Of a DNA stretch of 34,026 bases, positions 5,495 to 31,180 are shown in pieces. Where the stretch lies: the NCBI GenBank assembly GCA_020628145.1, contig JAHDFN010000016.1:1-34026 (forward strand), read 5' to 3'. This DNA comes from Saprospiraceae bacterium. GTDB lineage: Bacteria; Bacteroidota; Bacteroidia; Chitinophagales; Saprospiraceae. The notes beneath the pieces were generated by a model. It saw only the letters and a list, made by a program, of their open reading frames with translations, was not told the origin of the DNA and did no database searches. Position 1 is the stretch's first letter; each line of letters begins with the position of its first letter. Position numbers and translations under genes: made by a program.

Positions 5495-7162
5495 TTATAA
5501 TATCCCGGTAGCAATCTTATTGTAATATGCCCACCGTTTGATAATCTTTTTGTGTTCGTCATTGGGTCTGGCATTGAATCTGGCAGAAGCCTGGACGATG
5601 CGGCTGCCCTTGTTCAATTCTATGGTAACCCGGCTGAGCCATTTGCCATCCTGATATTCCCTTAGCGACCAGATCGAACAGAAGCCCTTGACACAACTAT
5701 CCGCATAAGAGCCTACACAATGATTCATCACCATTCCTTCCACCCGCAACATCCCCTTGGATGTCAATTCTTCAATCCGATAGGGATCTTCGTCGAAGGG
5801 TTTTATTTTTTTGTGGGGATCCCAGATTCCTTTCCTTCTTTTTTCTTCCCAGGAAATCCTACGTCTTCTCGCCTGATCCTCGGCTTCCCTTCTTTGCCGA
5901 CGTTCCAATATTCGGGCATTATAAGTGTCACTCTCTTCCATCAGACTCCGAAGCGATCTTCTTTGTACGGTAAATCCGGGTTTATCCCGGAGGCAATGGT
6001 AAATGTATCCCATGAATGGAACGGCATTTACTTCAGGGATGGCTTCGAATTCGTCATTTGAAAATTTTTGGATAACCGGATTCCATTTATCCAACTCGAT
6101 TTGTAAAGCGATGTGATCTTCGGGATGCCTGACGAATTGTTGCAACATATTTGATAATAAATCCCCGGCGCCCAAGGATTTTCCATAAAAATAAATGTAC
6201 ATGTCTTTTCCTTCCTGATCGAAATCATAAGGGAGATTTACGAATGTCTTGGCCATCCTTCGGGTATAATGGTGTAGGTCGGGAGCATTACGGATACTTC
6301 CTCCTTTTGCCAAATGAAAAAATCCCGGACTGCCGAAATAAAAATTCTTATTGCCCTTGCCGTAATAAATTCCGTTTTTCCACCAAATGAATTCAGGGAC
6401 ATATTTGACAACATTAGAAAATTCCATGGAATAATATTCATCATTATTTTCCAAAGCTTGTTCCTTTCGTTCCTTGTACCTTTCCCAAACCATGAACCAT
6501 TCTGCTATCCGATCCACATTATTCAATAATTCTTTTTCATCCATCCGATGAAAAAACCGATTAATAAAAAACGGAAGTATTTTCTTTATGAATAGAAAAA
6601 CATATTCTGCCGAGGTTTCAGAGAGTGATGTGGGATATAATAAATGTAATAAATCGGCAATGAACTTTTTTTCGTCATCATTAAAATCCTGTGCGTAGTT
6701 ATCCCATAATTCAATAAAGACATCCAAGTTTTTGAAATAGAAATATTTTATTTTTTGCAAATAGTCCACGGGGTAATTCTCCAAAGCCTTGCTTTTCAGC
6801 AATTGTCCGGCACTGATTCCGTCCATTCCTCTCCCTCCTAAAAACAACCATGTATTCAATGCTCCTTTTTTAGTCGGCAGTTGTAACCCATCTTTCAAAA
6901 TTCCATTAAAATGTCCTAGTAATAAATCTTCCTTATTCCCTGTATTTCCGAACAAGGAGGAAAGGGAAACATCCAATGCGGTTTTGGATGCTCCGACTGA
7001 AAAATATATTTTTTTCAAGGATTCCAACGAGCCATTTCCCAATAGCTTTTTTAATTTTCCATCCTCATATAAATTCCGGATTTCGTGGATAAAGGATTGT
7101 TTTTCCGAAGTCTCATCGAAATCCATTTTATTCATTAATCGTATAATGTCATTCCACTCCAT
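5495..7162 (-). CDS. PcfJ-like domain protein
   Basis: C-terminal MVMNHCVGSYADSCVKGFCSIWSLREYQDGKWLSRVTIELNKGSRIVQASARFNARPNDEHKKIIKRWA matches the PcfJ-like pattern (HCVgsY...i.Slr...g...TiEl...ivQ..g..N). Confidence 0.75.
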   Translation of the reverse strand: MEWNDIIRLMNKMDFDETSEKQSFIHEIRNLYEDGKLKKLLGNGSLESLKKIYFSVGASKTALDVSLSSLFGNTGNKEDLLLGHFNGILKDGLQLPTKKGALNTWLFLGGRGMDGISAGQLLKSKALENYPVDYLQKIKYFYFKNLDVFIELWDNYAQDFNDDEKKFIADLLHLLYPTSLSETSAEYVFLFIKKILPFFINRFFHRMDEKELLNNVDRIAEWFMVWERYKERKEQALENNDEYYSMEFSNVVKYVPEFIWWKNGIYYGKGNKNFYFGSPGFFHLAKGGSIRNAPDLHHYTRRMAKTFVNLPYDFDQEGKDMYIYFYGKSLGAGDLLSNMLQQFVRHPEDHIALQIELDKWNPVIQKFSNDEFEAIPEVNAVPFMGYIYHCLRDKPGFTVQRRSLRSLMEESDTYNARILERRQRREAEDQARRRRISWEEKRRKGIWDPHKKIKPFDEDPYRIEELTSKGMLRVEGMVMNHCVGSYADSCVKGFCSIWSLREYQDGKWLSRVTIELNKGSRIVQASARFNARPNDEHKKIIKRWAYYNKIATGIL

Positions 7163-7200: not shown

Positions 7201-7437
7201 CTGCATTCTTTATCGTGAATCTAATATCCAGAAAATTAATTCAAAAATTAATGATTACAAAAATCAAACATATCAAACGGAGTTACCTGTCGCAAGAAGG
7301 GATGTTTTTTCCGAGTGTCTGATTTTCCATTATTGATTTTTCAATCATAAGGGGAGATCTCCAACTCCCTTTCTTTTCCAAAATGTTTTTGTTGCGTTTA
7401 TTTTTTTTAGCCAGAGGTATATCCTCAAGCCAACATA

Positions 7438-7509
7438 GGTGACCAAGCTCTCTGGGGAGAGCGCCCTGTTGAAACCAGGGAGGGCTTGGTTCGAATCCAG
7501 GATTACCAC
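7438..7509 (+). tRNA. Atypical tRNA-Phe(GAA)-like element, possibly degenerate
   Basis: D arm GCTC-TCTGGGGA-GAGC, anticodon arm CCCTG-TTGAAAC-CAGGG (anticodon GAA), T arm CTTGG-TTCGAAT-CCAGG. The acceptor stem is poor: only GGTGA/TTACC pairs cleanly and it is out of register by one. Followed directly by a terminator. Confidence 0.5.
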
Positions 7510-7561: not shown

Positions 7562-10500
7562 TTACCAGGCTCCCTTCACTCTGGATATGAACATATCCGC
7601 AGAAACGGGACTGATGGGTGAAATCTTATAAACACCATCCTTGCCCATTTTTATTTCGAGTTCTTTTTTCTTGGCTCCTGTAATAGCATTATTATATGCG
7701 GGGTTACTGGAAACGGTTTCCAATTCTCCGTTTTTATATTTAAAATAATAATAGTGTCCTCCCGAAGAAGGGTTTTTAATATAAACATGCATACCGTCCT
7801 CACCATTACCGGGCATTCTGAATTCGACATAAGCTTCAACGGTTTTACTGATACTGACTCCGTTGACCTGTGACAGTCCGAGGCTTTTCGTTCTATTGAC
7901 CAAGGACTTCAGATTCGGGTCCCATTTCATAGGGAGATAAGAAAAGAAGAAAAGATGTTTTTTCTTATTCGTCAGGGTTACTTTTCCTGTCGTTTCATAA
8001 TTCCTTACAATTTGTTCATATGCTTTTTCACTATCCACCATTCCACCGATGATATCGGGTAATAACTTTTCATAGAGTGAATTCAATCGGATACTGGAAA
8101 CGTCGTAGGTATTATCTTGTAAATCCTTTACCATGATTTTCAGTGCGGCTTCCGGTAGCTGATAGGAAATACCCGCCATTGCATCCAATGTCAGTCTTTG
8201 CGGTACCGAGACCCTCATGCCGGTAGAATCCACTTCCGATTTTTTCATAACCACTTTGGCTTTTCCTACAACGGTGGGTTGAAAGAATTTGACATTTTCC
8301 CCCACATTGAATACACCCGTTGCTTCACAATCCTTGGTTTTATTATTCACTTGAAAAGTATTCCCTTTGTAATGGCCATTCCTACTTGCAAGTTTTATGG
8401 AATCACCGAAAATGAAAGCGTCTTTTCCTTCATCATATTTGAATACGCCGGTTACATCCATGATTGCCCTATCCTTTCTGGCAAACAGAATACCCATTAC
8501 ACTGGGGTAAGGATTCCCCATCATCTTATCGATGAAAATCCCCGTTTTAAGCGGATCACCATTAGGTGTTTTTGGTTTTTCATAAGGGATGACCAAATTA
8601 TTTTTATCCGCTTCGCTCTGTACGGTGAACCAATTATTCTGAGGGAGTTCCATATCCAAGTTGGCATAACCATCAAAAGATAAATTCTTTTTTTCCGAGC
8701 TTAATGAGATTTCCCCCTTGAACTTGGTTTTGACATCCATGTAGAAATCATCTTCACCGCTTACCTTTCCACTACCCCTGGTCGCCAATTCCTTCTCGAC
8801 TCTTTTTCCCTTACCTATTGGAGAGCCGACAATATTACTGAATTCAATTTCCTGTTTACGAGAACCGATATTATACTCATAGAACCCACTAGCCGTATAG
8901 TCCCTTCCTCCTTTTATATCTACAGTAGCCCTATTGATAGCATGATACTTGGTTCTATGACTAGCTAGAATCCGTGCATTTTCCAAAGTCCCCATCTTAC
9001 CACCGGCCGTAACTTCCACATCTCCCGTTTCGGGATAAATCAGGGCATCTGCCGATTTGATGAAGGGGACACCTCCAATCTTAAGGGTACTCGTTTTAAT
9101 ATCATACATGGCCGTCGCCCCCTGGAATCTCAGCGAATCCAATTCGGGAGCCAGAAACTCATCGACCTTGCCTTCCTCTGCCTTGAAGTCAACCGTTTCT
9201 GCATTCATATCCCATGTAAATTCATTCATGGAAGTTTTATACTTATTGTAAGGCATAGAGGTAGCAATTCCATCCGAGTTATTTTTGAATTTCCCTATTC
9301 CTTTGTCAAAATCCACATCTGCCATTACATTTTTAGAATCGAAAGCCAATTCCCCAGCGGCATCTTTTGCCTTGATAGAAATATTGGAAGTATCGGCAGA
9401 TAATGAATTGGCATTGAATAGGAAATCACGGGAAGTCATCGAGGCTTTATCCCAGTCCAATAATCCATTGGCCCGAAGTCCTCCCGGCGTAAGAATAAGC
9501 GTACCATCCAAGGTATGTAGGCCCGACTTGAACATTTCAAATGGGGACTCCTTGGGTTTGATGTACATTGAGTCACGATAGGGTGCCCAATCCACATTTA
9601 CATCGACACCCCTTACCTGGGGTACTTCGGGATTAGTTCCTCTTTTTTCTTCCAAATCAAAGCTCCTTGCGGAACAGGTCATCCTCTTCGGTTCAAAGGC
9701 GATATCTTCCGAATCAATCGACGCTGCAAGATAGTTGATGTTGCCTTTTGCTAGGAAACCAGCATTACTTAAGGTGAGTTCTCCTTTGAAATTACCTTTT
9801 CCTGCACTGCTTTCCCTAACATAAGTAGGATAACCGTTGGCAGGAGTATCATGGATAAAACCTAGGGATTTGTCTTCTTCCATCAAGGATACGGTTTCCT
9901 TGAAAGGGGCAAAAATATCCGCCGAATACATACTTCCTTTAAAGCTAATATCCGAAGGCATATAATTATCCAGATTATCGAATCCGAATTCATTCAATTG
10001 GAAATAGAAAGAGTCTCTTTTATATGCATAGGATCGTGTTTCGGCAGCATCATAATACACATAGGCCGGCCCCTTACTTGAAAAAGAGGGGAACATGGAA
10101 ATATCTTCATTACTTGCCTTGTTATTCGGTGCATCAATCAATAGTGCTCCGGAAAGATTCTCTATTCTGGAACCGATCGAAAAGGCCACCGGGTCTCCAT
10201 TTTCATCTTCATCCCCACTATGTTCGAACAAATCGAAATATTTGATGGAATCCATTTTGATTTGGTATGCTCCATAATCGAAACGGTTGTCTGTTCCTTG
10301 AAATGCACTCATTCCGGCGAATGTCTTTCCATTGTATTCCAGATTCCTATTCTTTTTCAAGAACAGTTGGTTGTTCCGGGGTTTGAAGGCTACTTTCTGA
10401 ACCTTGCTTAATTCTACGAATTTCACAGAACGGATATCTATTGGATTCTCATTCTGATCATCCAAATAAATGACACCATTTGTGTTTTTGGTTTTGGAAG

Positions 10501-12118
10501 CGATAAATACATTATCATAATCCGTTTTCTTGACGGCGGCTTTGGCATAGTGTCTCAATTTTTCCTGCACATACACCTTTCCGGTTTCATTATCGAATTC
10601 GACAAAACCCCTCGAAACCATTGAGTATAAAAGACTTTTAATGGATTTGAGGGAGAATTTGGGGTTTATTTTTTGAGCCAGACCATCTCCATCCAACACA
10701 TCGGAGCCTGTTTCTTTGGAATAAGCCATTACCACAGCAATTGGATTTACCGTCGATATGTTCTGAAGTTCCAGATAACCACCTTCGTTAAAATAATGAA
10801 TGGATTCGAAATTGGCAATCTTGTCATTTCCTCCTGCAATACCGGGAATGGTCTTACCTATAACAATCGAATCCGTGTCTAACTGCCAGTCCAACTTATC
10901 CGCATCCAGTCGGATATTATGGAATGAATTATAAAATGGATTCCTGTCGTTTCCTCTTTCTCCTCTTTCTATTGATAGATTTTTATCGTCGATTTCAAAA
11001 CGAATATTAGACGAAGGGTGATAAATCGAATCCTTCCCCATGTACAAAACAGTTTCCGTACTGGAACTAACCACCCTACGCACATCTTCCTTGATGATGA
11101 ATTGGAGGGAACGTGCTTTAAAAACCGTTTTTCCGGTCTTATTGGATTTGACCTGGATTTCGGCTCTCCTTTCCTCATCTCCATAGCCATAGATGGTAGG
11201 GCCTTGTAACTTGAATCCTCCTCTATAAATCACATCGGAACCGATATTATCTATCTGAAGTATTTTTTGGTCGGATTCAAATCTGGGGTAAGTCGATTTA
11301 GAGCCTTCTCCCTTCACGACTATCCGATCTTCAAAAACCCCTTGTATAGGTTTACCGGGAAAATATTTCGGATAATGCAAAACAGCATCGGGACAGGTAT
11401 AAACATTCTTTTTGACTTCAAATTCATATTTGCCCAATTTGACAAAGACATCTTCCATTCCGTTCCTAGCCCAACTTACTTGGCCTTTTTCCCCTTTCCA
11501 AATATCCGAAAACGGATAATAAGCTCCCGTTGTTTGTTCGATTTTAATAGAATCCTGTTTCCGCACTCCATATAAATCCACTTGAGCAAATTCAACAGAT
11601 ACTATTTTGTTTTCGTATTTCACTTTATAACTAGGCGCTTCTATTCTCCATGTGGAACCGGCTGACTTCCTGATGGCTTTGAACTCGTAGAAACCCTCTG
11701 CGAAAACCAGGAAATTCTTGTAATCCTTATTGTTCCTTTTTTCAATATCATCGATTATGAGCTTACTGGTGTTGTTGAATTCATCAATACTTGTAGAAGA
11801 CTTCTGAAACTTATTGATTTTGTTCAGTGTACCCAGATAACCTATGAAATAAGGGGCGGGAGTCATTCTTTTTTTCAACATTCCATCACAAACGGCATGG
11901 ATCGTGGTTGCTTGTTCGGGCGTGTATATTCCACCTTCATAACCTGTCTTGAATTCCTTATAAATAATTTCAATATCCTCTCTTTGGTTCTTATTCATAT
12001 ATTCTCCCAACTGGGTCATGAATTCCTGAGGATTGGAAGAAAACTCCTTTAATGTCTGGGCATGAACAATGGTTCCCGACATTAAAACGGCTATTAGTGT
12101 AAATAATCTGAATATCAT
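7562..12118 (-). CDS. Very large secreted beta-repeat protein of unknown function
   Basis: Signal peptide MIFRLFTLIAVLMSGTIVHAQ; 1518 aa with repeated L.L...G..A.G segments (e.g. LTLSNAGFLAKGNINYLAASIDSEDIAF and LILTPGGLRANGLLDWDKASMTSRDFLF). Confidence 0.75.
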   Translation of the reverse strand: MIFRLFTLIAVLMSGTIVHAQTLKEFSSNPQEFMTQLGEYMNKNQREDIEIIYKEFKTGYEGGIYTPEQATTIHAVCDGMLKKRMTPAPYFIGYLGTLNKINKFQKSSTSIDEFNNTSKLIIDDIEKRNNKDYKNFLVFAEGFYEFKAIRKSAGSTWRIEAPSYKVKYENKIVSVEFAQVDLYGVRKQDSIKIEQTTGAYYPFSDIWKGEKGQVSWARNGMEDVFVKLGKYEFEVKKNVYTCPDAVLHYPKYFPGKPIQGVFEDRIVVKGEGSKSTYPRFESDQKILQIDNIGSDVIYRGGFKLQGPTIYGYGDEERRAEIQVKSNKTGKTVFKARSLQFIIKEDVRRVVSSSTETVLYMGKDSIYHPSSNIRFEIDDKNLSIERGERGNDRNPFYNSFHNIRLDADKLDWQLDTDSIVIGKTIPGIAGGNDKIANFESIHYFNEGGYLELQNISTVNPIAVVMAYSKETGSDVLDGDGLAQKINPKFSLKSIKSLLYSMVSRGFVEFDNETGKVYVQEKLRHYAKAAVKKTDYDNVFIASKTKNTNGVIYLDDQNENPIDIRSVKFVELSKVQKVAFKPRNNQLFLKKNRNLEYNGKTFAGMSAFQGTDNRFDYGAYQIKMDSIKYFDLFEHSGDEDENGDPVAFSIGSRIENLSGALLIDAPNNKASNEDISMFPSFSSKGPAYVYYDAAETRSYAYKRDSFYFQLNEFGFDNLDNYMPSDISFKGSMYSADIFAPFKETVSLMEEDKSLGFIHDTPANGYPTYVRESSAGKGNFKGELTLSNAGFLAKGNINYLAASIDSEDIAFEPKRMTCSARSFDLEEKRGTNPEVPQVRGVDVNVDWAPYRDSMYIKPKESPFEMFKSGLHTLDGTLILTPGGLRANGLLDWDKASMTSRDFLFNANSLSADTSNISIKAKDAAGELAFDSKNVMADVDFDKGIGKFKNNSDGIATSMPYNKYKTSMNEFTWDMNAETVDFKAEEGKVDEFLAPELDSLRFQGATAMYDIKTSTLKIGGVPFIKSADALIYPETGDVEVTAGGKMGTLENARILASHRTKYHAINRATVDIKGGRDYTASGFYEYNIGSRKQEIEFSNIVGSPIGKGKRVEKELATRGSGKVSGEDDFYMDVKTKFKGEISLSSEKKNLSFDGYANLDMELPQNNWFTVQSEADKNNLVIPYEKPKTPNGDPLKTGIFIDKMMGNPYPSVMGILFARKDRAIMDVTGVFKYDEGKDAFIFGDSIKLASRNGHYKGNTFQVNNKTKDCEATGVFNVGENVKFFQPTVVGKAKVVMKKSEVDSTGMRVSVPQRLTLDAMAGISYQLPEAALKIMVKDLQDNTYDVSSIRLNSLYEKLLPDIIGGMVDSEKAYEQIVRNYETTGKVTLTNKKKHLFFFSYLPMKWDPNLKSLVNRTKSLGLSQVNGVSISKTVEAYVEFRMPGNGEDGMHVYIKNPSSGGHYYYFKYKNGELETVSSNPAYNNAITGAKKKELEIKMGKDGVYKISPISPVSADMFISRVKGAW

Positions 12119-12269: not shown

Positions 12270-13097
12270 TCAGTATCTTCTAAAAGCCTTTAGTGCCATC
12301 CATTTTCCTTTATGTTTCAACTCTCCGGCAAAAAATCCATTTTCTCTATGGGCATCCAATACCAAGGTCTTATCCTTTTCCAAAAAACCCGAGGTCATCA
12401 GGATTCCTGCCGGTTTCAGCCTCTGATACAACGTAGGAAGTGATTCCAGTATTACGTTTCGATTGATATTGGCTAGAATGATATCATAATTCCTTTCGGG
12501 TACATTTTCCAATGTCCCTTCATAAAATCCAATCCCATTGGTTTTATTCAATTCTGCATTTTCAATGCTATTCAAATAAGCGGGTTTCTCTATATCTACG
12601 GCATCCAAATCGGTACATCCCATTTTGGCTGCAAGAATGGCGAGGATTCCGGTTCCACATCCATAATCAAAAACGGATTTCGATGTAAAACCGATGTCTT
12701 TCATGAATTCCATCATCATAAATGTCGTTTCATGATGACCTGTTCCGAATGCCATTTTGGGATTGATGATGATTTCATGTTCCATATTTTCAAAGGGAGG
12801 ATGGAAATCAGCCCGGATACCGCAGAACCCTTCTACCGATACCGGTTGGAAGTTGGATTCCCAAATTTCATTCCAGTTGCGTTCTTTTATGAGTTCCTTT
12901 TCAAAGGAAAACCGGAAATTATTTTTCAGTTCGGTGACACCCTTTTCCACATTCGGATTATGTAATTCGACTGGGATGAAAGCATCCAATCCAGTTTCTG
13001 TTTCCTGAAAAGTATCGAAGGGCCATTCGGATAAAAAGGCTATTAGTATTTCGGAAGTAGTCCTATCGGAAGTAAATGCATATCGGATATAATCCAT
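12270..13097 (-). CDS. prmA: Ribosomal protein L11 methyltransferase
   Basis: SAM-binding region FDYGCGTGILAILAAKMGC, upstream KMAFGTGHHETTFMMMEF and DIILANINRNVIL are characteristic of PrmA. Confidence 0.95.
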   Translation of the reverse strand: MDYIRYAFTSDRTTSEILIAFLSEWPFDTFQETETGLDAFIPVELHNPNVEKGVTELKNNFRFSFEKELIKERNWNEIWESNFQPVSVEGFCGIRADFHPPFENMEHEIIINPKMAFGTGHHETTFMMMEFMKDIGFTSKSVFDYGCGTGILAILAAKMGCTDLDAVDIEKPAYLNSIENAELNKTNGIGFYEGTLENVPERNYDIILANINRNVILESLPTLYQRLKPAGILMTSGFLEKDKTLVLDAHRENGFFAGELKHKGKWMALKAFRRY

Positions 13098-13114: not shown

Positions 13115-13885
13115 TCAAACTCTGGACTGAGACAATGCTTCAATAATGGGCAAAAATGATTCCGCTTTCAAGGAAGCTCCTCCTACCAAGCCCCCATCGA
13201 CATCAGGCTGGGCGAAAAGTTCCCGGGCATTTCCAGGCTTTACACTTCCCCCATAAAGGATGGTTGTTTGTTCGGCAGTCGCTTCATCATACCTTTCGGC
13301 AATCGCCAATCGAATCATCCGATGCATTTCCTGGGCCTGTTCGGGGCTTGCCGTTACTCCCGTACCAATTGCCCAAATGGGTTCATAAGCGATGATTACC
13401 TTTAGGAAATCATCTTTTTCCAAATGAAAAATGCCTTTGACCAATTGATTTTTCACATATCTTTCATGCCATCCTTCATTTCTTATTTCCAGTGCTTCGC
13501 CACAGCAAAAAATGGGTTTCATCCCTCCCTTGATAGCGGCATCCGCCTTCTTGGACAAGAGTTCATTGGATTCCCTGAAATACTGCCTTCTTTCTGAATG
13601 TCCGAGGATAACATATTCAACACCAATAGAAGTAAGCATTCCTACGGAGATTTCACCCGTAAAAGCCCCGGATGCTTCCTGGTGACAATTCTGTGCGGCT
13701 ATTTTTACTTCAGAATTCCTTCCGGCCATCTCTACCATATCTTTAAGATGGATATAAGGTGTACCCAATATGGTCAAAGTACCGGGTTGTGGTTTTGTTT
13801 CTTTTATGATGGCATGGGCCAATTCACGGCCTTCATCATAATCCATATTCATTTTCCAATTTCCGGCAGCGATTCTGAGTCTCAT
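13115..13885 (-). CDS. tpiA: Triosephosphate isomerase
   Basis: AGNWKMN, YVILGHSERRQYF, IAYEPIWAIGTG, ILYGGSVKPGNA, GGLVGGASL. Confidence 0.98.
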   Translation of the reverse strand: MRLRIAAGNWKMNMDYDEGRELAHAIIKETKPQPGTLTILGTPYIHLKDMVEMAGRNSEVKIAAQNCHQEASGAFTGEISVGMLTSIGVEYVILGHSERRQYFRESNELLSKKADAAIKGGMKPIFCCGEALEIRNEGWHERYVKNQLVKGIFHLEKDDFLKVIIAYEPIWAIGTGVTASPEQAQEMHRMIRLAIAERYDEATAEQTTILYGGSVKPGNARELFAQPDVDGGLVGGASLKAESFLPIIEALSQSRV

Positions 13886-14596: not shown

Positions 14597-17500
14597 CTAC
14601 GGTATGGCCAAAAGGTTGTTGATTTGTTCGATGACACTCATATTGCTTGATTTTTCGGTATTCCGTGCTACCCTCCCCTTCTTGTCTATAATGAGTAAGG
14701 CCGGAAGTTTTTTCACTCCATAGTCCTTAGCCATATCCGACCCTAACCCTCCTTTGGCATAAAGGTGGGTTCCGGGCAATTTATGTCTTACCAGATAATT
14801 TTTCCATTCGCTTTCGGTATAATCCAATGAAACATAAATGAAAACGACATCCTTATTTTTGAATGAATTCCTCAGGTTATCGGAATTACTCATTTGGCGT
14901 ATGCAGGCATTGCACCAAGTTGCCCAGAAATCCAAATAAATCACCTTACCCTTGAAATCCGTAAGAGATACTTTCCGTCCGTTGTTATCCAAAAGGGTGA
15001 AATTGGGGGCTGTCATTCCCTTGAGCAGGGTATTGGATTCCCGAAGTGCAGCCTTCACCGACTCTCTGTAGGTTTCGTAGGGACATTCATCCATAAACCT
15101 TTTGATTTCAAATATCACATCTCCGAGTTTGCCATTACGGGCCAGTGCCGAAAGTCTTTTTGCCTGATAATAATACATCACTTCCCCATAGAGATACCTT
15201 GTAGATAATTCCATGGATGTCATTCCTCTGTTTTCAAATTCTTCTTCCTTGTCCTTCAGGTATAAATCGAGGAAATATGTATAGAATTCATTGGGTAAGG
15301 CCCTATCATTGACCAGACCGATTTCATCCACATAATCATAATAGGATACATCGGTAATTTTAATGGGTTTGGAATTCCCATATTGAAGAGGGTTTTCCCA
15401 CCGGTAATTGGTTAGATTATATGCATACCAATAATCGATATCGCTTCGGATGAAGTTATCAAAACCTGAAGAAAATCCTTTTTTGTTTTTTTGGTAGTAT
15501 TTGGTTTTGTCCTTATGGATTTTTCGGATAAAATGTTTGAACCCTGCTGCACTTGCCGAGTAGATTTTCCCTTTGGTTTCAACATCTCCGTTTTTGAACT
15601 CTCTTCTCATGTCCAGGATAAAGGAGTTATGGACACTTCCTTTTCCATTGTACTTCAAGGTACCTTTGAAATCATTGGCAAAGAAGGAAATATCGAGGTC
15701 ATCTCCCGGTTCCAAATAAATATCCACATGTCTAGAACCATAAATGAATTTACCAATGGTTGGTTCATAAATTTTGAGAACGGTGGAAAACGCCCCATCA
15801 GGTTTGACAAATAAATTGAAGTTCACTTCCTTCATTGAAACCGGATCCGTGTATAGTATGATTTGGACATTCTTATTTCGATAATAACGGATTTTGCCTT
15901 TCACTTTCACCGAATACATTTCCCTTTTAATTGGTTCCATATCAATCATGGATAATAGTTCGGCAGGGGAAATCAAACGGCCATCCTCTTGGGAGGAAGT
16001 TGTTTTGACCGGAGGAGTAGAGATTTTTTTCCAATTATTCTTTTCTTCCGTTTTAGGCTTAGAGGTATTATTTACAACAGGCGGTTCTTCTTTTTTTGAA
16101 GCATCGGCTTTTTCCTTCTTCTTGGCTTCCGCCTTGGCTTGTTTTTTTCTTTTCTGTACAACTTTTTTTGCTTCCTCGGGTGTATAACCCAAGGATATCA
16201 AATCCAATTCAGCTACCAAATCCTCGTCTAATGCTCCACTGGATCTACTAGAAATATCTTCGGGTTCTGCGACGACCCTCCCTATTGTTCCGTCATCATC
16301 CAATTTAACCAAAGTTCCTTCCTCTATTTTTACTTCTTTTTTCTTATCCTCGGATTTTCCTTTCGGTTTTTCCCTAGGCTTCTTTTTTTCCTTCTCCTTA
16401 CTTGTAGTCACATTTTCGGAATCGGATTTCGACGTCTTCTCCTTCGTTGATTTTTCTGGTTTTTCGGATTTATTTTTTTGCTTCTTGGCTGTATTATTCT
16501 TTTTGCTTTTATCGGGTTGTTCTTTTTCTATTTTTTTCTTTTCTACCGATTGACCATCGGTGGAAATCGTTTCCTTAGTAATCGGTTTTTCAGGTAATGG
16601 TTCTTTTATTTTTTCTTCTTTTCCCGGAACAACAGAAACGATATCGGCATTTTCAGAAGCCGAATTCACCGATGTCGGTTGAGTAGGAGGAACAATTGTC
16701 AATACCTGATCCAATTCTCCTCTAAGTGATTGTTGATATACCTTATTAATTGCTTCATCCAGTTCCGGATAAGGACAACGGGCAACAAACGACCTTACTT
16801 CGTTCTCCACTTCAGCAGGTCTTGAATTTTTACATTTCCAAAAAAGGGAATTGGCCATCGTATAGTAAAGCGCCCTACCGGAAAGATATAATTCCGAGGG
16901 GTCGGCCTTTTTCTTTTCTCCTTCGACAGTAATTGTTTTTTTAACCTTCCGGCTTGACTTTATGGTTTTCAATTCCACTCCTGCACCAAAGACCCATCCG
17001 ATCATCCCGGAAGATGTCCGGATGTTATAAAAATGATCCGTCCTCGATTTGCCTCTGATATTGAAAGTATATTTTTGGGATGACTTATTTCCGAGGTAGG
17101 ACATTTCATCTCCTTGTTTCATCAAGGCAATGGCATTGGAGAGATCAGGATTCTCCCTGACCCTTAGCTTATCGACCAGAGCAACGGCTACCATCTTGTC
17201 GTAGTTTTCCAACACCTCTACGGTTTTGTATTTTTTTTCCGTTTGGCGACCGCCAATGATTTCACCACCCCCACCAAAGACCCATCCTTCCCTTCCATCA
17301 CGAGTTCTGACCCTTAGCCAATGAGCCGATTTGATGATTCCATCAATGGTCTTGGACATCAATGTGGATGATTTTTCATCCAAGTACTTAATCCGCTCCC
17401 CACGTTTAAGTGTTGTAAGCGGGGTACGACTACCGGTATTGACCAAGACATCCAATTCACTAACCCTTACTTCAAAAACCGACTGGTCTATTTGTTCCAA

Positions 17501-18520
17501 AATAGAGGCATCGGGGTTGTCTTCCCTCAACTTGAGGTATAATACCAGAAAATTGAGATAATTACGGCTCCTTACTGCAAAATCATTACTAACCAATATC
17601 TTACCAAGAAAATTATAATATGACGGCGTTATCCTCATGGGGTAAGATAAGCCATTGGAAGCCGGATGTTCCCAATGATACCTCAACAGGGAATAGGCCC
17701 ACCAATAATCTATTTCGCCAATAATATACCTTTCGAATTCATTAGAGAATTTTTTTCTAGCCTGCCGGTCATAAGTATGGTAATAATTCCATTTGGAACG
17801 ATGAACCCTATCTACATAGGAACGATAATCCATTGCCCTTTTGGATACGATTTCGCTATATACTCTGTTTTCACCGTGGTTGATGAATTCGGCATTGAAC
17901 CTTTTGAGGAAGTTATTATTGATTGCCCCTTCTCCTTTGAAGCCCATCGACCAGACGAATTCGTTTCCGTGGGCATCGATTTCCAAATCATCTCCCGGCT
18001 CCAGGAATATTTCGACTTCCTTGTTGCCATAGGCGAGTTTGGCTATGGTCGGTTCTGCAATTTGAAATTGGAAATCAAAATAGTTTCCACCATTGAGTGG
18101 TAGTACGAATTCCTTTTCTTCAAAAGAAATCAAATCCTTGTAGAACTTTACTGCGACCGATGTGAAACTTGGGGATTTTATCGTCCCTTTCAGGCGGGTT
18201 GTTTTTGCTTGGGCTTTCGGATAATTCGAAGAATATGCAACAGGATAATCTACAAATAACGGAGAAGGTCTTTTTCTGATTTTTTCTGCTGCCTCGGATA
18301 ATACTTCCGGGAAATGCTCCTTATCGGTTTTCCAATTTCCACTCCGGGGAAGTGTTTTTATTTTCCCCAAGGCCAATGCATTCAATGCCCACAAATCCAC
18401 AGCATGATTATGCTGATTCTTTTCCAACCGATTTTCATTAAAATGAGCATCGGGATGCTGGGCAGAAATTTGAAAAAGAATGAATAAAAACAATATGATT
18501 AAAATTCCGCTATATCTCAT
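14597..18520 (-). CDS. Modular secreted protein: duplicated N-terminal modules, two SH3-like domains, Lys/Glu-rich linker and a C-terminal TlpA/AhpC-TSA thioredoxin domain
   Basis: C-terminal KVIYLDFWATWCNACIRQMSN (CxxC); two GWVFG(G/A)G-containing SH3-like units; EPTIAKLAYGNKEVEIFLEPGDDLEI is repeated as EPTIGKFIYGSRHVDIYLEPGDDLDI. Confidence 0.85.
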   Translation of the reverse strand: MRYSGILIILFLFILFQISAQHPDAHFNENRLEKNQHNHAVDLWALNALALGKIKTLPRSGNWKTDKEHFPEVLSEAAEKIRKRPSPLFVDYPVAYSSNYPKAQAKTTRLKGTIKSPSFTSVAVKFYKDLISFEEKEFVLPLNGGNYFDFQFQIAEPTIAKLAYGNKEVEIFLEPGDDLEIDAHGNEFVWSMGFKGEGAINNNFLKRFNAEFINHGENRVYSEIVSKRAMDYRSYVDRVHRSKWNYYHTYDRQARKKFSNEFERYIIGEIDYWWAYSLLRYHWEHPASNGLSYPMRITPSYYNFLGKILVSNDFAVRSRNYLNFLVLYLKLREDNPDASILEQIDQSVFEVRVSELDVLVNTGSRTPLTTLKRGERIKYLDEKSSTLMSKTIDGIIKSAHWLRVRTRDGREGWVFGGGGEIIGGRQTEKKYKTVEVLENYDKMVAVALVDKLRVRENPDLSNAIALMKQGDEMSYLGNKSSQKYTFNIRGKSRTDHFYNIRTSSGMIGWVFGAGVELKTIKSSRKVKKTITVEGEKKKADPSELYLSGRALYYTMANSLFWKCKNSRPAEVENEVRSFVARCPYPELDEAINKVYQQSLRGELDQVLTIVPPTQPTSVNSASENADIVSVVPGKEEKIKEPLPEKPITKETISTDGQSVEKKKIEKEQPDKSKKNNTAKKQKNKSEKPEKSTKEKTSKSDSENVTTSKEKEKKKPREKPKGKSEDKKKEVKIEEGTLVKLDDDGTIGRVVAEPEDISSRSSGALDEDLVAELDLISLGYTPEEAKKVVQKRKKQAKAEAKKKEKADASKKEEPPVVNNTSKPKTEEKNNWKKISTPPVKTTSSQEDGRLISPAELLSMIDMEPIKREMYSVKVKGKIRYYRNKNVQIILYTDPVSMKEVNFNLFVKPDGAFSTVLKIYEPTIGKFIYGSRHVDIYLEPGDDLDISFFANDFKGTLKYNGKGSVHNSFILDMRREFKNGDVETKGKIYSASAAGFKHFIRKIHKDKTKYYQKNKKGFSSGFDNFIRSDIDYWYAYNLTNYRWENPLQYGNSKPIKITDVSYYDYVDEIGLVNDRALPNEFYTYFLDLYLKDKEEEFENRGMTSMELSTRYLYGEVMYYYQAKRLSALARNGKLGDVIFEIKRFMDECPYETYRESVKAALRESNTLLKGMTAPNFTLLDNNGRKVSLTDFKGKVIYLDFWATWCNACIRQMSNSDNLRNSFKNKDVVFIYVSLDYTESEWKNYLVRHKLPGTHLYAKGGLGSDMAKDYGVKKLPALLIIDKKGRVARNTEKSSNMSVIEQINNLLAIP

Positions 18521-27826: not shown

Positions 27827-30800
27827 TTAATTACTGTTCTGCTTCAAACTCTTATAATATTCTTCCACCAATGCCTTATAGTAAGGTTTGAGTGAAGGAG
27901 ATACCGTTTTATACATATCTATTTCTGCTTCTCTCTTCTTGAGATATTCTTCCAATGCCGGTGGCATTTTCCTTTCTTTCCGGGTTGTTCTTTCGGCTTT
28001 ACGTTTATCGTCATATTCACGTTGACGCTCGGCCTTATCCGATTTCAACAGGCGGGTCATGATATCCTGCTGGCGTTTCATGGTTTCGTTATTAAGCCGC
28101 TTATTGACCAAGTCTGTTTCCGTTTTATTCATTTGTTCTATCAACTCCTGCAGTTGGGGATCTCCTCCTTCTCCGGATTGCTGTTTTTCCCTTTGCAGTT
28201 TTTCCATAGCATCACGGATGGCAGCCTGTCTTTTGGCCATTTCGGCAAAACGCTTACTCATGCCTTTCCCACCCTTTCCTTTCATGCCTTCCTTCATTTG
28301 TTGGAGATCCTTATTCAATTGTTCCTGCATACCTTTCATATCCCCGGGAGTACGGCCGTTCTTTCCTTTCCCCTTGCCTTTTCCACCCGGCTTCTGGCAG
28401 TTCTGATTTCCTTGCATCTCGGATGCCATCTGTTGTTGCATCTGATTCAAGACCTCACTCAACATCAATGCCAAGTCATTCAGCCCTTTCATGGAAGCAT
28501 TTTCATTTACTGCAGCCTGTTGCTTCCTTCTTTCTTCAAGATGCTTTAATGATTCTTCAAGATTATCCTTGACTTCGGTTACTTTTTCGGTAACAAAAGA
28601 CTCAATCTGATAAACTCGCTTACTCAAGGCATGAAGACTATCTTCAACAATCTTGAAATCGTCCTTGATCTTATACTGATCCTGAACTAATTCAACATAT
28701 CGGGGGGTGTTGATGGCCGTTTTATTGATATTTTCCATGACTTCCTCCTGTTCGAAGGAAAGTGTCACTAGGTTTTCCAACAACTGACGTAAAGCATCCA
28801 TGTCTTCTTCCATCTGTTCCTGCTCACCGGCCTGCATCTGCATCTGCATATTTCCGGCAGCCTGTTTCATTTTTTCAGAAGCACTCTTCTGGGATTCGGA
28901 AGCCTTGCTTTTTTGACCTTTCTGCAACTCCTGTTGTCCCTGATCCAAATCCTCTTGAATATCTTCCAATGCTTCTTGCATTCCATCCATATCCATAGGA
29001 TTCTCCAACTCTTCATTCTTTTCTTCCAACTCCTCCATCTTCTCTTGGATCTCATCGAATTTTTCTTGGATTTCCTCCTGTTTCTTTTCCAATTCGTTTT
29101 GGCTCTTACGGTTTTCCTGTGTGTCTTCACTCAACTGTTCCGTTTCTTCAGCCAATTCTTCCAAGTCTTCTATCTGATCCATCATCTCGCTCTCCATTTC
29201 CAATTGCTTGAAGAGTTCCAACATCCTATCCAACTCCATTTCCAACTCCTCGTCATTCATCTCCATATCTTCAAGATTCTCCATCGCATCTTCCCGATCC
29301 ATTTTTTCCAAGAGTTCTTCCATCTGCTGCATAAGTTCCTTCATTTCCTCACTCATCAGCTCTTGGAAAAGCTTCTGGACTTTCTCCTGCTTATCCATCA
29401 ATTCTTCCTTGGATTGGTCGAACTCCTCTTGGTTCTTCATATTCTCCTCGAAATTCTCTTGGGCATTCTGGATACGTTCCTGCAATTCCTTCTGCTGCTC
29501 CATCAACTTTTCGATCTCTTTCCTATCCTGCCAGTCCAATTCTTTTTCCTGTAACATCTTTTCCCTCATTTCCTTCATCTTCTCTTGGATTTCCTTGGTT
29601 TCTTCCAAGGCCTGTTCCAAGTCTTCTTTGATTTCCTCATTGTTTTCATCTTCGATTTCCTTGATTTCATCAATGGAAGGCATCTTATAGGTCATCAATT
29701 GTGTCCTTGCCGATTTGCTGCCATTGATACCATCATTATCAAAGACCTCGAAGTAGTAAGTTGCATTGTCTCCGGGCTGTAAATTGAGATTTCTGATATC
29801 CCAGGTATATTCATATTGTACTCGGTTATTAGTCGGCTGTTGGATAGGGATCGCATTAAGCGTTCCTTCAGCACCATTTTCCTTTTTGATACGATAATTA
29901 AAATTCAGGCGGGTCAATCCGTAATCATCAGAAGCATCACCGGCAAAATAGATCAGCTTGTTGTCCGTACTATCAATGAATCTCTCCAAGGAAATACTCG
30001 GATTCAAATCCGGTATTACCGAGATCGTATATCCGATGGAATCGGCATTCGCCAACCTTTCATTGGAAACATAAACCTTATAGGTTTCATCTTTCATTGC
30101 CCTTCGTTGATAGGCAAAATATTTTTCCCCACTCCGTTTGGCTTCAATCGCTTTTTTATTGCCTGAGAATTTCATGTCGATTTTATCCGTATGTCGGGTA
30201 TCGAACATCCAATCCAAACGGGTTCCCAAAGGAACAACCATATCTCCAATATCTTTTAAGGCTTCATCCTTACGGCCGGTATAAGATGGATAATCCAATC
30301 TGATTTCGAAACCGGAAATGTCCGGTTTTTTCAACACATCCAAATTATATTTTTCGGAAAAGAAACCACCGGATGTCAATTTGAAATCCGTATCCTTCTG
30401 TACATTTTTGAATTTATAGGTAAAAGTATTTTTAGAAGCTTGGGTCAGTTTATATTGATAACCTTCCACATCTATGAAAACCTCACTGGGGATGACTTCC
30501 CCTTCGGTTGATACTTTCAATAGGTAATCCTCATATTGAATAACTTCGAAATCGTCATTTTCCACACTGAAGGAGAATGGGGCTTCCCTTTCGAATTCCT
30601 TATCATTATTGATGATACGAGTCGTTCCATCCTTGATGATGCTTGCATTGACAAAAAGGATGAAGAAGAGTGCCAATAGTGGAGGCATGGCGTATTTGAG
30701 GTATTTCCTGTTTTTACCCAAATCGATGGCCTTGCGGAAAGGAGTCAGTTTGATATCTTCGGATTTCTGATCGATGCCTGCGAGCAAAAGACCGTTATTC

Positions 30801-31180
30801 CCACCTGCTTTATCCGCCTGTTGTTTGAGTTGGAGGATATTGAGCATTTTATCTTTTACATTTCCAAAATGATCACCGATAATGGATGCGGCCTGTTCGT
30901 GGGAAATAACCTTTCCCAAACGCATAATCTGCATTAAGGGCCAAAGGACCAATGTGGCCAAAGCGACTCCACTGATACCGATAAAAGTATAGAAGAAACC
31001 TTTCCTGACGGGTTTATCAAAATAATAATAATATTCCAATACGTTAAAGATGACGAATAAGGCGATTATGATGCCTACGGCATAAAGGGTTCCCCTTATG
31101 AATTTATTGAAATAGAATTTTCGGATAAATCGATCTAATTTGGAAATCAGGAGATCGTAATTGCTATTAGCTTTTGCCAT
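27827..31180 (-). CDS. DUF4175-family-like large membrane protein with long coiled coil
   Basis: Two N-terminal TM helices and a third around residue 170; central E/K/Q/M-rich coiled coil; C-terminal Q-rich region. Matches the layout of Bacteroidota DUF4175 proteins. Confidence 0.75.
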   Translation of the reverse strand: MAKANSNYDLLISKLDRFIRKFYFNKFIRGTLYAVGIIIALFVIFNVLEYYYYFDKPVRKGFFYTFIGISGVALATLVLWPLMQIMRLGKVISHEQAASIIGDHFGNVKDKMLNILQLKQQADKAGGNNGLLLAGIDQKSEDIKLTPFRKAIDLGKNRKYLKYAMPPLLALFFILFVNASIIKDGTTRIINNDKEFEREAPFSFSVENDDFEVIQYEDYLLKVSTEGEVIPSEVFIDVEGYQYKLTQASKNTFTYKFKNVQKDTDFKLTSGGFFSEKYNLDVLKKPDISGFEIRLDYPSYTGRKDEALKDIGDMVVPLGTRLDWMFDTRHTDKIDMKFSGNKKAIEAKRSGEKYFAYQRRAMKDETYKVYVSNERLANADSIGYTISVIPDLNPSISLERFIDSTDNKLIYFAGDASDDYGLTRLNFNYRIKKENGAEGTLNAIPIQQPTNNRVQYEYTWDIRNLNLQPGDNATYYFEVFDNDGINGSKSARTQLMTYKMPSIDEIKEIEDENNEEIKEDLEQALEETKEIQEKMKEMREKMLQEKELDWQDRKEIEKLMEQQKELQERIQNAQENFEENMKNQEEFDQSKEELMDKQEKVQKLFQELMSEEMKELMQQMEELLEKMDREDAMENLEDMEMNDEELEMELDRMLELFKQLEMESEMMDQIEDLEELAEETEQLSEDTQENRKSQNELEKKQEEIQEKFDEIQEKMEELEEKNEELENPMDMDGMQEALEDIQEDLDQGQQELQKGQKSKASESQKSASEKMKQAAGNMQMQMQAGEQEQMEEDMDALRQLLENLVTLSFEQEEVMENINKTAINTPRYVELVQDQYKIKDDFKIVEDSLHALSKRVYQIESFVTEKVTEVKDNLEESLKHLEERRKQQAAVNENASMKGLNDLALMLSEVLNQMQQQMASEMQGNQNCQKPGGKGKGKGKNGRTPGDMKGMQEQLNKDLQQMKEGMKGKGGKGMSKRFAEMAKRQAAIRDAMEKLQREKQQSGEGGDPQLQELIEQMNKTETDLVNKRLNNETMKRQQDIMTRLLKSDKAERQREYDDKRKAERTTRKERKMPPALEEYLKKREAEIDMYKTVSPSLKPYYKALVEEYYKSLKQNSN

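Follow-up and report, generated by a model that had tools for sequence, protein, structure and literature searches.

The LptA and LptD proteins carry lipopolysaccharide (LPS) across the bacterial envelope, and the LptA/LptC fold is established as a binder of lipid A moieties. TamB and the AsmA-like proteins YhdP and YdbH, which also form very long β-grooves, are proposed lipid bridges (PMC8593681, PMC8912898, PMC12045153), and in E. coli the joint deletion of three AsmA-like proteins was needed to reveal their lipid role (PMC8593681, PMC8912898). The Bacteroidota have hardly been studied with regard to lipid transport to the outer membrane (PMC12045153). Described here is a gene, called TARGET, in a 34,026-nucleotide stretch of a Saprospiraceae genome (contig JAHDFN010000016.1; the whole stretch is referred to as the window), whose product is exported and whose closest solved folds, as judged from predicted models, belong to the LptA/LptC/LptD/LptH group. 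The reading favoured here, held at roughly even confidence, is that TARGET is a Sec-exported, soluble periplasmic protein that, much like LptA but in one chain, conducts or carries acyl chains between the two membranes of the envelope.

TARGET shares an antiparallel β-jellyroll, amphipathic strands and export with LptA, LptH, LptC and the N-terminal domain of LptD, but its single chain has nearly ten times the length of LptA and no detectable sequence homology to it. It also differs from the Lpt proteins in its additional domains, one helical at the N-terminus, one winged-helix-like and one at the C-terminus, with no barrel recognised, and its gene does not lie beside lpt genes. TamB and the AsmA-like proteins resemble TARGET in their very long β-groove and similar size, whereas they have an inner-membrane anchor in place of the cleavable signal peptide predicted for TARGET. 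The OstA_2 proteins of Bacteroidota (PF13100; mostly 600-770 residues) are likewise of a secreted β-groove type and occur in the same genomes, but they are present also in relatives without TARGET. The genome itself encodes a separate OstA_2 protein (681-residue open frame), an LptD_2 (937 residues) and a TamB (1654 residues, G000:C80). Comparison of TARGET profiles by hhalign with 25 OstA_2 proteins and 25 TamB relatives returned probabilities of only 2% and 0.2%, respectively. Given these low probabilities and the separate genes, TARGET is a member of neither the OstA/LptA family nor TamB, however alike their manner of working may be. Orthology with LptA/OstA was rejected accordingly, as was membership of TamB/AsmA, where TARGET also lacks the TamB C-terminal domain (PF04357) or a match to any other AsmA model and finds no TamB structure among its 50 best Foldseek matches.

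Export signal and predicted fold

TARGET is an open reading frame of 1518 codons with an ATG start. An earlier note on this DNA had its extent and length right, but the gene lies on the minus strand; a plus-strand reading is ruled out by many stops. The features of the gene are as follows.

7562..12118, minus strand: TARGET gene, secreted β-groove protein, 1518 residues (open reading frame and translation; family in three orders)
12059..12118, minus strand: signal peptide, residues 1-20, cleavage expected before Q21 (sequence; homologue motif)
11681..12031, minus strand: N-terminal domain of six helices, residues 30-146 (AlphaFold2 model 21-1160, confidence score pLDDT ~85-94 here)
8159..11677, minus strand: predicted β-solenoid or groove region, residues ~148-1320 (AlphaFold2; Foldseek to LptA, LptC, LptD and LptH; strand amphipathicity z 5.5)
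10535..10786, minus strand: winged-helix-like insertion, residues ~445-528 (model order helix-helix-helix-strand-strand; weak sub-threshold matches)
9590..9850, minus strand: repeat copy 1, residues 757-843 (profile self-comparison, p 1.1e-5)
9317..9559, minus strand: repeat copy 2, residues 854-934 (profile self-comparison, p 1.1e-5)
7988..8152, minus strand: three helices linking solenoid and C-terminal domain, residues 1323-1377 (AlphaFold2 model)
7565..7951, minus strand: C-terminal domain, residues 1390-1518, seven strands then helices (AlphaFold2 model; weak PH match)

The N-terminus displays a hydrophobic segment followed by VHAQ, a signal peptidase I type of site without a lipobox, which agrees with the earlier note's view of a secreted protein. 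An A/G/S-Q motif follows the hydrophobic segment in 120 of 127 homologues, cleavage being predicted from sequence only, and a lipobox-like motif is seen in just seven of the 127. Past residue 40 the hydropathy maximum (KD-19) is 1.01, leaving TARGET without another transmembrane-like segment, and no further such segment occurs in 126 of the 127 members. TARGET is thus exported without a membrane anchor, presumably to the periplasm. A place among surface proteins of the type IX secretion system (T9SS) was ruled out, for Pfam finds no Por_Secre_tail sorting tail in TARGET, unlike the protein at 48-2210 of the window, which does match that model.

Structure prediction with AlphaFold2 was run on two overlapping halves with 91 diverse homologues, giving a mean pLDDT (predicted local distance difference test) of 93.1 for residues 620-1518 and 91.4 for residues 21-1160. 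The ~1170-residue core is modelled as nearly pure antiparallel β-structure of more than 80 short strands. The faces of these strands alternate in hydrophobicity beyond shuffled controls (z 5.5, 0 of 2000 shuffles as high), with Leu, Phe, Ile and Val at 45% on one face against 22% on its opposite, while Lys, Glu, Asp and Arg contribute 11% to the former and 31% to the latter. With two strands per rung and a rise of 4.8 Å, a groove of this kind would be on the order of 20 nm long, and it would presumably be continuous and open.

Searched against the PDB with Foldseek, the models match LptA (2r19/2r1a) at probability 1.00, with target-normalised template modelling (TM) scores mostly of 0.59-0.65 and a root-mean-square deviation of ~3 Å. 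LptH follows at 0.95-0.98 and LptC at 0.94-0.97, and many LptD chains are among the matches (E down to 1.4e-6, probability up to 0.96). The check proposed in the earlier note, structure prediction followed by Foldseek, therefore returned confident all-β models with LptA on top; the elongated β-protein that it envisaged is largely supported in its LptA/LptD-like form, by models and amphipathic strands alike, and its suggested kinship with TamB/AsmA is not.

Several parts of the chain lie outside the β-core pattern. Winged helices usually reside in cytoplasmic DNA-binding proteins, and here such a domain sits inside an exported β-protein; because TARGET is secreted, the insertion is probably protein-binding. 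Distant members of the family match Fe_dep_repress, SgrR_N, GntR and MarR in this region weakly and below threshold (E 1e-3 to 2e-2). The C-terminal end is modelled as helices and an α/β domain rather than a barrel. A PDB profile search with this domain retrieved antibody chains and weak matches, one of them the PH domain of SKAP (1u5g, E 0.25), and the domain is possibly PH-like.

Sequence relationships and inheritance

TARGET has no match in Pfam at E<=0.1, in NCBIfam at E<=1, or among PDB sequences at E<=10, either as a single sequence or as a 38-sequence profile; the OstA/LptA models of Pfam and NCBIfam and the Pfam model of LptD are among those without a match. The earlier note, which recognised no catalytic motif, holds in this respect, and the enzyme or adhesin family that it named as contrary evidence was sought in Pfam and NCBIfam and not found. 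No description of the family was found in the literature searched. The two recurring segments quoted in that note correspond to residues ~781-822 and 874-915 and belong to a real repeat, 757-843 against 854-934, significant at p = 1.1e-5 in a profile self-comparison of 107 homologues and at p = 2.7e-4 with 68. Further repeats are weak (p ~1e-3: 487-594 against 954-1043, and 156-629 against 603-1100 over 405 columns), so that TARGET holds one clear pair plus hints. A large internal duplication with a period of ~450 residues is hinted at only at this last level, and no claim is made for it.

Far from the orphan it had been taken for, TARGET belongs to a widespread family. One scan of genome contigs returned homologues in 56 loci, nearly all from Saprospiraceae or related Bacteroidota metagenome-assembled genomes (MAGs) and including the cultured Flavilitoribacter nigricans, at 36-83% identity and colinear end to end; the closest, at 79-83%, are from Saprospiraceae, which assigns the window to this family as well. 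Profile searches of whole genomes detect the family in 91 of 150 Saprospiraceae genomes, in 120 of 150 sampled across its own order, in 167 of 195 of a second order and in 92 of 100 of a third, which we take to be Chitinophagales, Cytophagales and a Crocinitomicaceae/Schleiferiaceae-type group. In phylum-wide samples 13-14 of 346-396 genomes match, all within these orders bar one short, chance-like match; another class of the phylum, sampled with 197 genomes, yielded that 50-residue match alone. As far as sampled the family is indeed specific to Bacteroidota, as had been suggested, but that description is too broad for a family confined to three orders of Bacteroidia.

Members range from 1468 to 2166 residues (median 1525) and remain colinear down to ~20-25% identity. 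A 127-sequence tree recovers Saprospiraceae, the second order and the third order as clades with support of 1.0, 1.0 and 0.996, and inheritance is therefore vertical and ancient; families of the own order other than Saprospiraceae cluster too, without support. One copy per genome is the rule. Some Saprospiraceae bear a second or third copy, several of them in tandem; the second copies (L093, L094, L095, L098/L099), placed in tandem behind the prmA-linked copy or elsewhere in the genome, are the more diverged. A contig filed under a Thermoanaerobaculia MAG (L023) has a copy 38% identical to TARGET, like other Saprospiraceae copies, and its placement is probably a binning error.

A conserved gene row

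The genes adjoining TARGET on its upstream side are as follows.

12270..13097, minus strand: prmA, ribosomal protein L11 methyltransferase, upstream neighbour (PF06325 1.5e-47, NF001785 6.3e-89)
13115..13885, minus strand: tpiA, triosephosphate isomerase, next neighbour (PF00121 2e-90)

Among 127 loci that include the upstream side, prmA is the immediately preceding gene on the same strand in 95, namely 41 of 57 in Saprospiraceae, 18 of 20 in other families within that order, 18 of 29 in the second order and 18 of 21 in the third. The gaps to TARGET have medians of 65, 9, 29 and 6 nucleotides, respectively, and some genes overlap. The order tpiA-prmA-TARGET is seen in 48 loci, and plsY comes after TARGET in 25 loci outside Saprospiraceae, the best tested matching PF02660 at E 4e-56 to 9e-59. 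This row, with or without plsY, persists in all three orders. The conserved neighbours are thus tpiA, prmA, plsY and an M20 peptidase; lpt, kds and LPS genes are not among them, and no sign of a polymer pathway is seen nearby.

Some genomes without TARGET place prmA directly before plsY (L261, L264, L267) or before a clpS-like gene (L259, L260), and one locus has the order prmA-TARGET-clpS (L203). Set against loci with TARGET between the two genes (L132, L153, L193), those with prmA and plsY adjoining display a clean, repeated loss from a fixed chromosomal place. An ancestral row tpiA-prmA-TARGET-plsY with repeated clean losses of TARGET is the simplest reading. A scan for promoters and terminators gave counts at the level of shuffled sequence, and the 151-nucleotide gap between prmA and TARGET contains no minus-strand terminator-like site.

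Other genes of the window deserve mention. At 14597-18520 (minus strand), in the same gene row, is encoded a secreted protein of 1307 residues, which adjoins tpiA/prmA in close relatives too; it combines two SH3_3 domains with a linker rich in Lys and Glu and a thioredoxin-like (Redoxin) domain at the C-terminal end. A PcfJ-like protein (PF14284), of a family first known from conjugative elements, is encoded at 5495-7162 (minus strand) beside a tRNA-Phe gene (7437-7509, plus strand), and a 1117-residue DUF4175 protein with a very Glu/Gln/Met-rich coiled coil in its middle at 27827-31180 (minus strand).

Possible roles in the envelope

In the proposed mechanism, TARGET would leave the cytoplasm by Sec export as a soluble periplasmic protein whose ~1170-residue core forms one long groove of the LptA/LptD-N type, a 'β-taco'. 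The N-terminal helical and C-terminal α/β domains would cap this groove and probably dock to partners or membranes, and the groove would carry acyl chains, whether of phospholipid or of some other lipid of the envelope, between the two membranes, alongside the Lpt and TAM systems that the genome also encodes. Contact with membranes, a span from one to the other and a lipid as cargo would each be part of such a role.

Several observations weigh against this proposal. The LptA alignments each span ~120 of ~1500 residues, TM-scores against LptD over the whole length are low (0.1-0.17), and low E-values are reached by teneurin chains too, at probability ~0.2, so that part of the Foldseek signal is that of a generic β-repeat. 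The predicted TM-score (pTM) is 0.67-0.68, each half having been modelled separately, and the low hhalign probabilities against OstA_2 and TamB count on the same side. TARGET is absent from whole families and from 50 of 129 good Saprospiraceae genomes, and any transport role is therefore dispensable or redundant. A functional link through plsY was downgraded, since prmA and plsY stay adjacent in genomes without TARGET, making this neighbour weak evidence for a lipid role.

The foremost alternative, an improbable one, is that of an envelope assembly chaperone, in which the groove would hold unfolded β-strands of outer-membrane or surface proteins and deliver them by strand augmentation, as proposed for TAM. 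TamB-type β-tacos are indeed discussed both as protein-assembly scaffolds and as lipid conduits (PMC11014939, PMC12045153), and the winged-helix-like insertion and C-terminal domain of TARGET are extras of a docking type; but no TamA/TamL/BamA-type gene is recognised as a conserved neighbour, TARGET has no recognised C-terminal barrel-like pseudosubstrate domain, and its closest folds are those of the Lpt lipid carriers. That ability of the LptA/LptC fold to bind lipid A, together with the absence of TARGET from many families, as befits an accessory function, would also accommodate a periplasmic scaffold that binds a polymer or glycolipid (e.g. capsule, LPS variants or sulfonolipids) and transports nothing. 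Such a role is less probable again, for the length of TARGET goes far beyond a binding domain without obvious reason, and its neighbourhood offers no polymer pathway. Marginally below it stands a structural protein or adhesin of β-modules at the cell surface or beyond, which the large size, secretion and repeated β-elements of TARGET would suit; its Foldseek likeness to teneurin/Rhs shells, equally long chains of short antiparallel strands, is of low probability (0.13-0.25, TM 0.04-0.07, with teneurin itself at ~0.2 and 0.06). Neither an adhesin domain nor a T9SS sorting tail was found by Pfam or NCBIfam, and the mostly single-copy, colinear and vertical pattern is housekeeping-like, unlike that of adhesins.

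The single-chain conduit for acyl chains thus stays the preferred reading. A bolder version, tentative and on balance doubtful, is that TARGET represents a lipid bridge across the envelope of a third kind, a soluble protein of LptA fold in one piece, independent of Lpt and AsmA/TamB, ancestral to the three orders of Bacteroidia and lost in sister families, that would supply the outer membrane with phospholipid or with a lipid peculiar to Bacteroidota.

The delivery of non-LPS lipids to the outer membrane is still under investigation. Occupying a fixed chromosomal place in many environmental Bacteroidota, but absent from most of the phylum sample, presumably including the usual laboratory models, a large family of LptA-like fold would have been overlooked. 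Because its predicted, very long amphipathic β-solenoid resembles LptA/LptD, TARGET may be an undescribed one-piece lipid bridge, and through its family the existence of further bridge systems can be tested directly.

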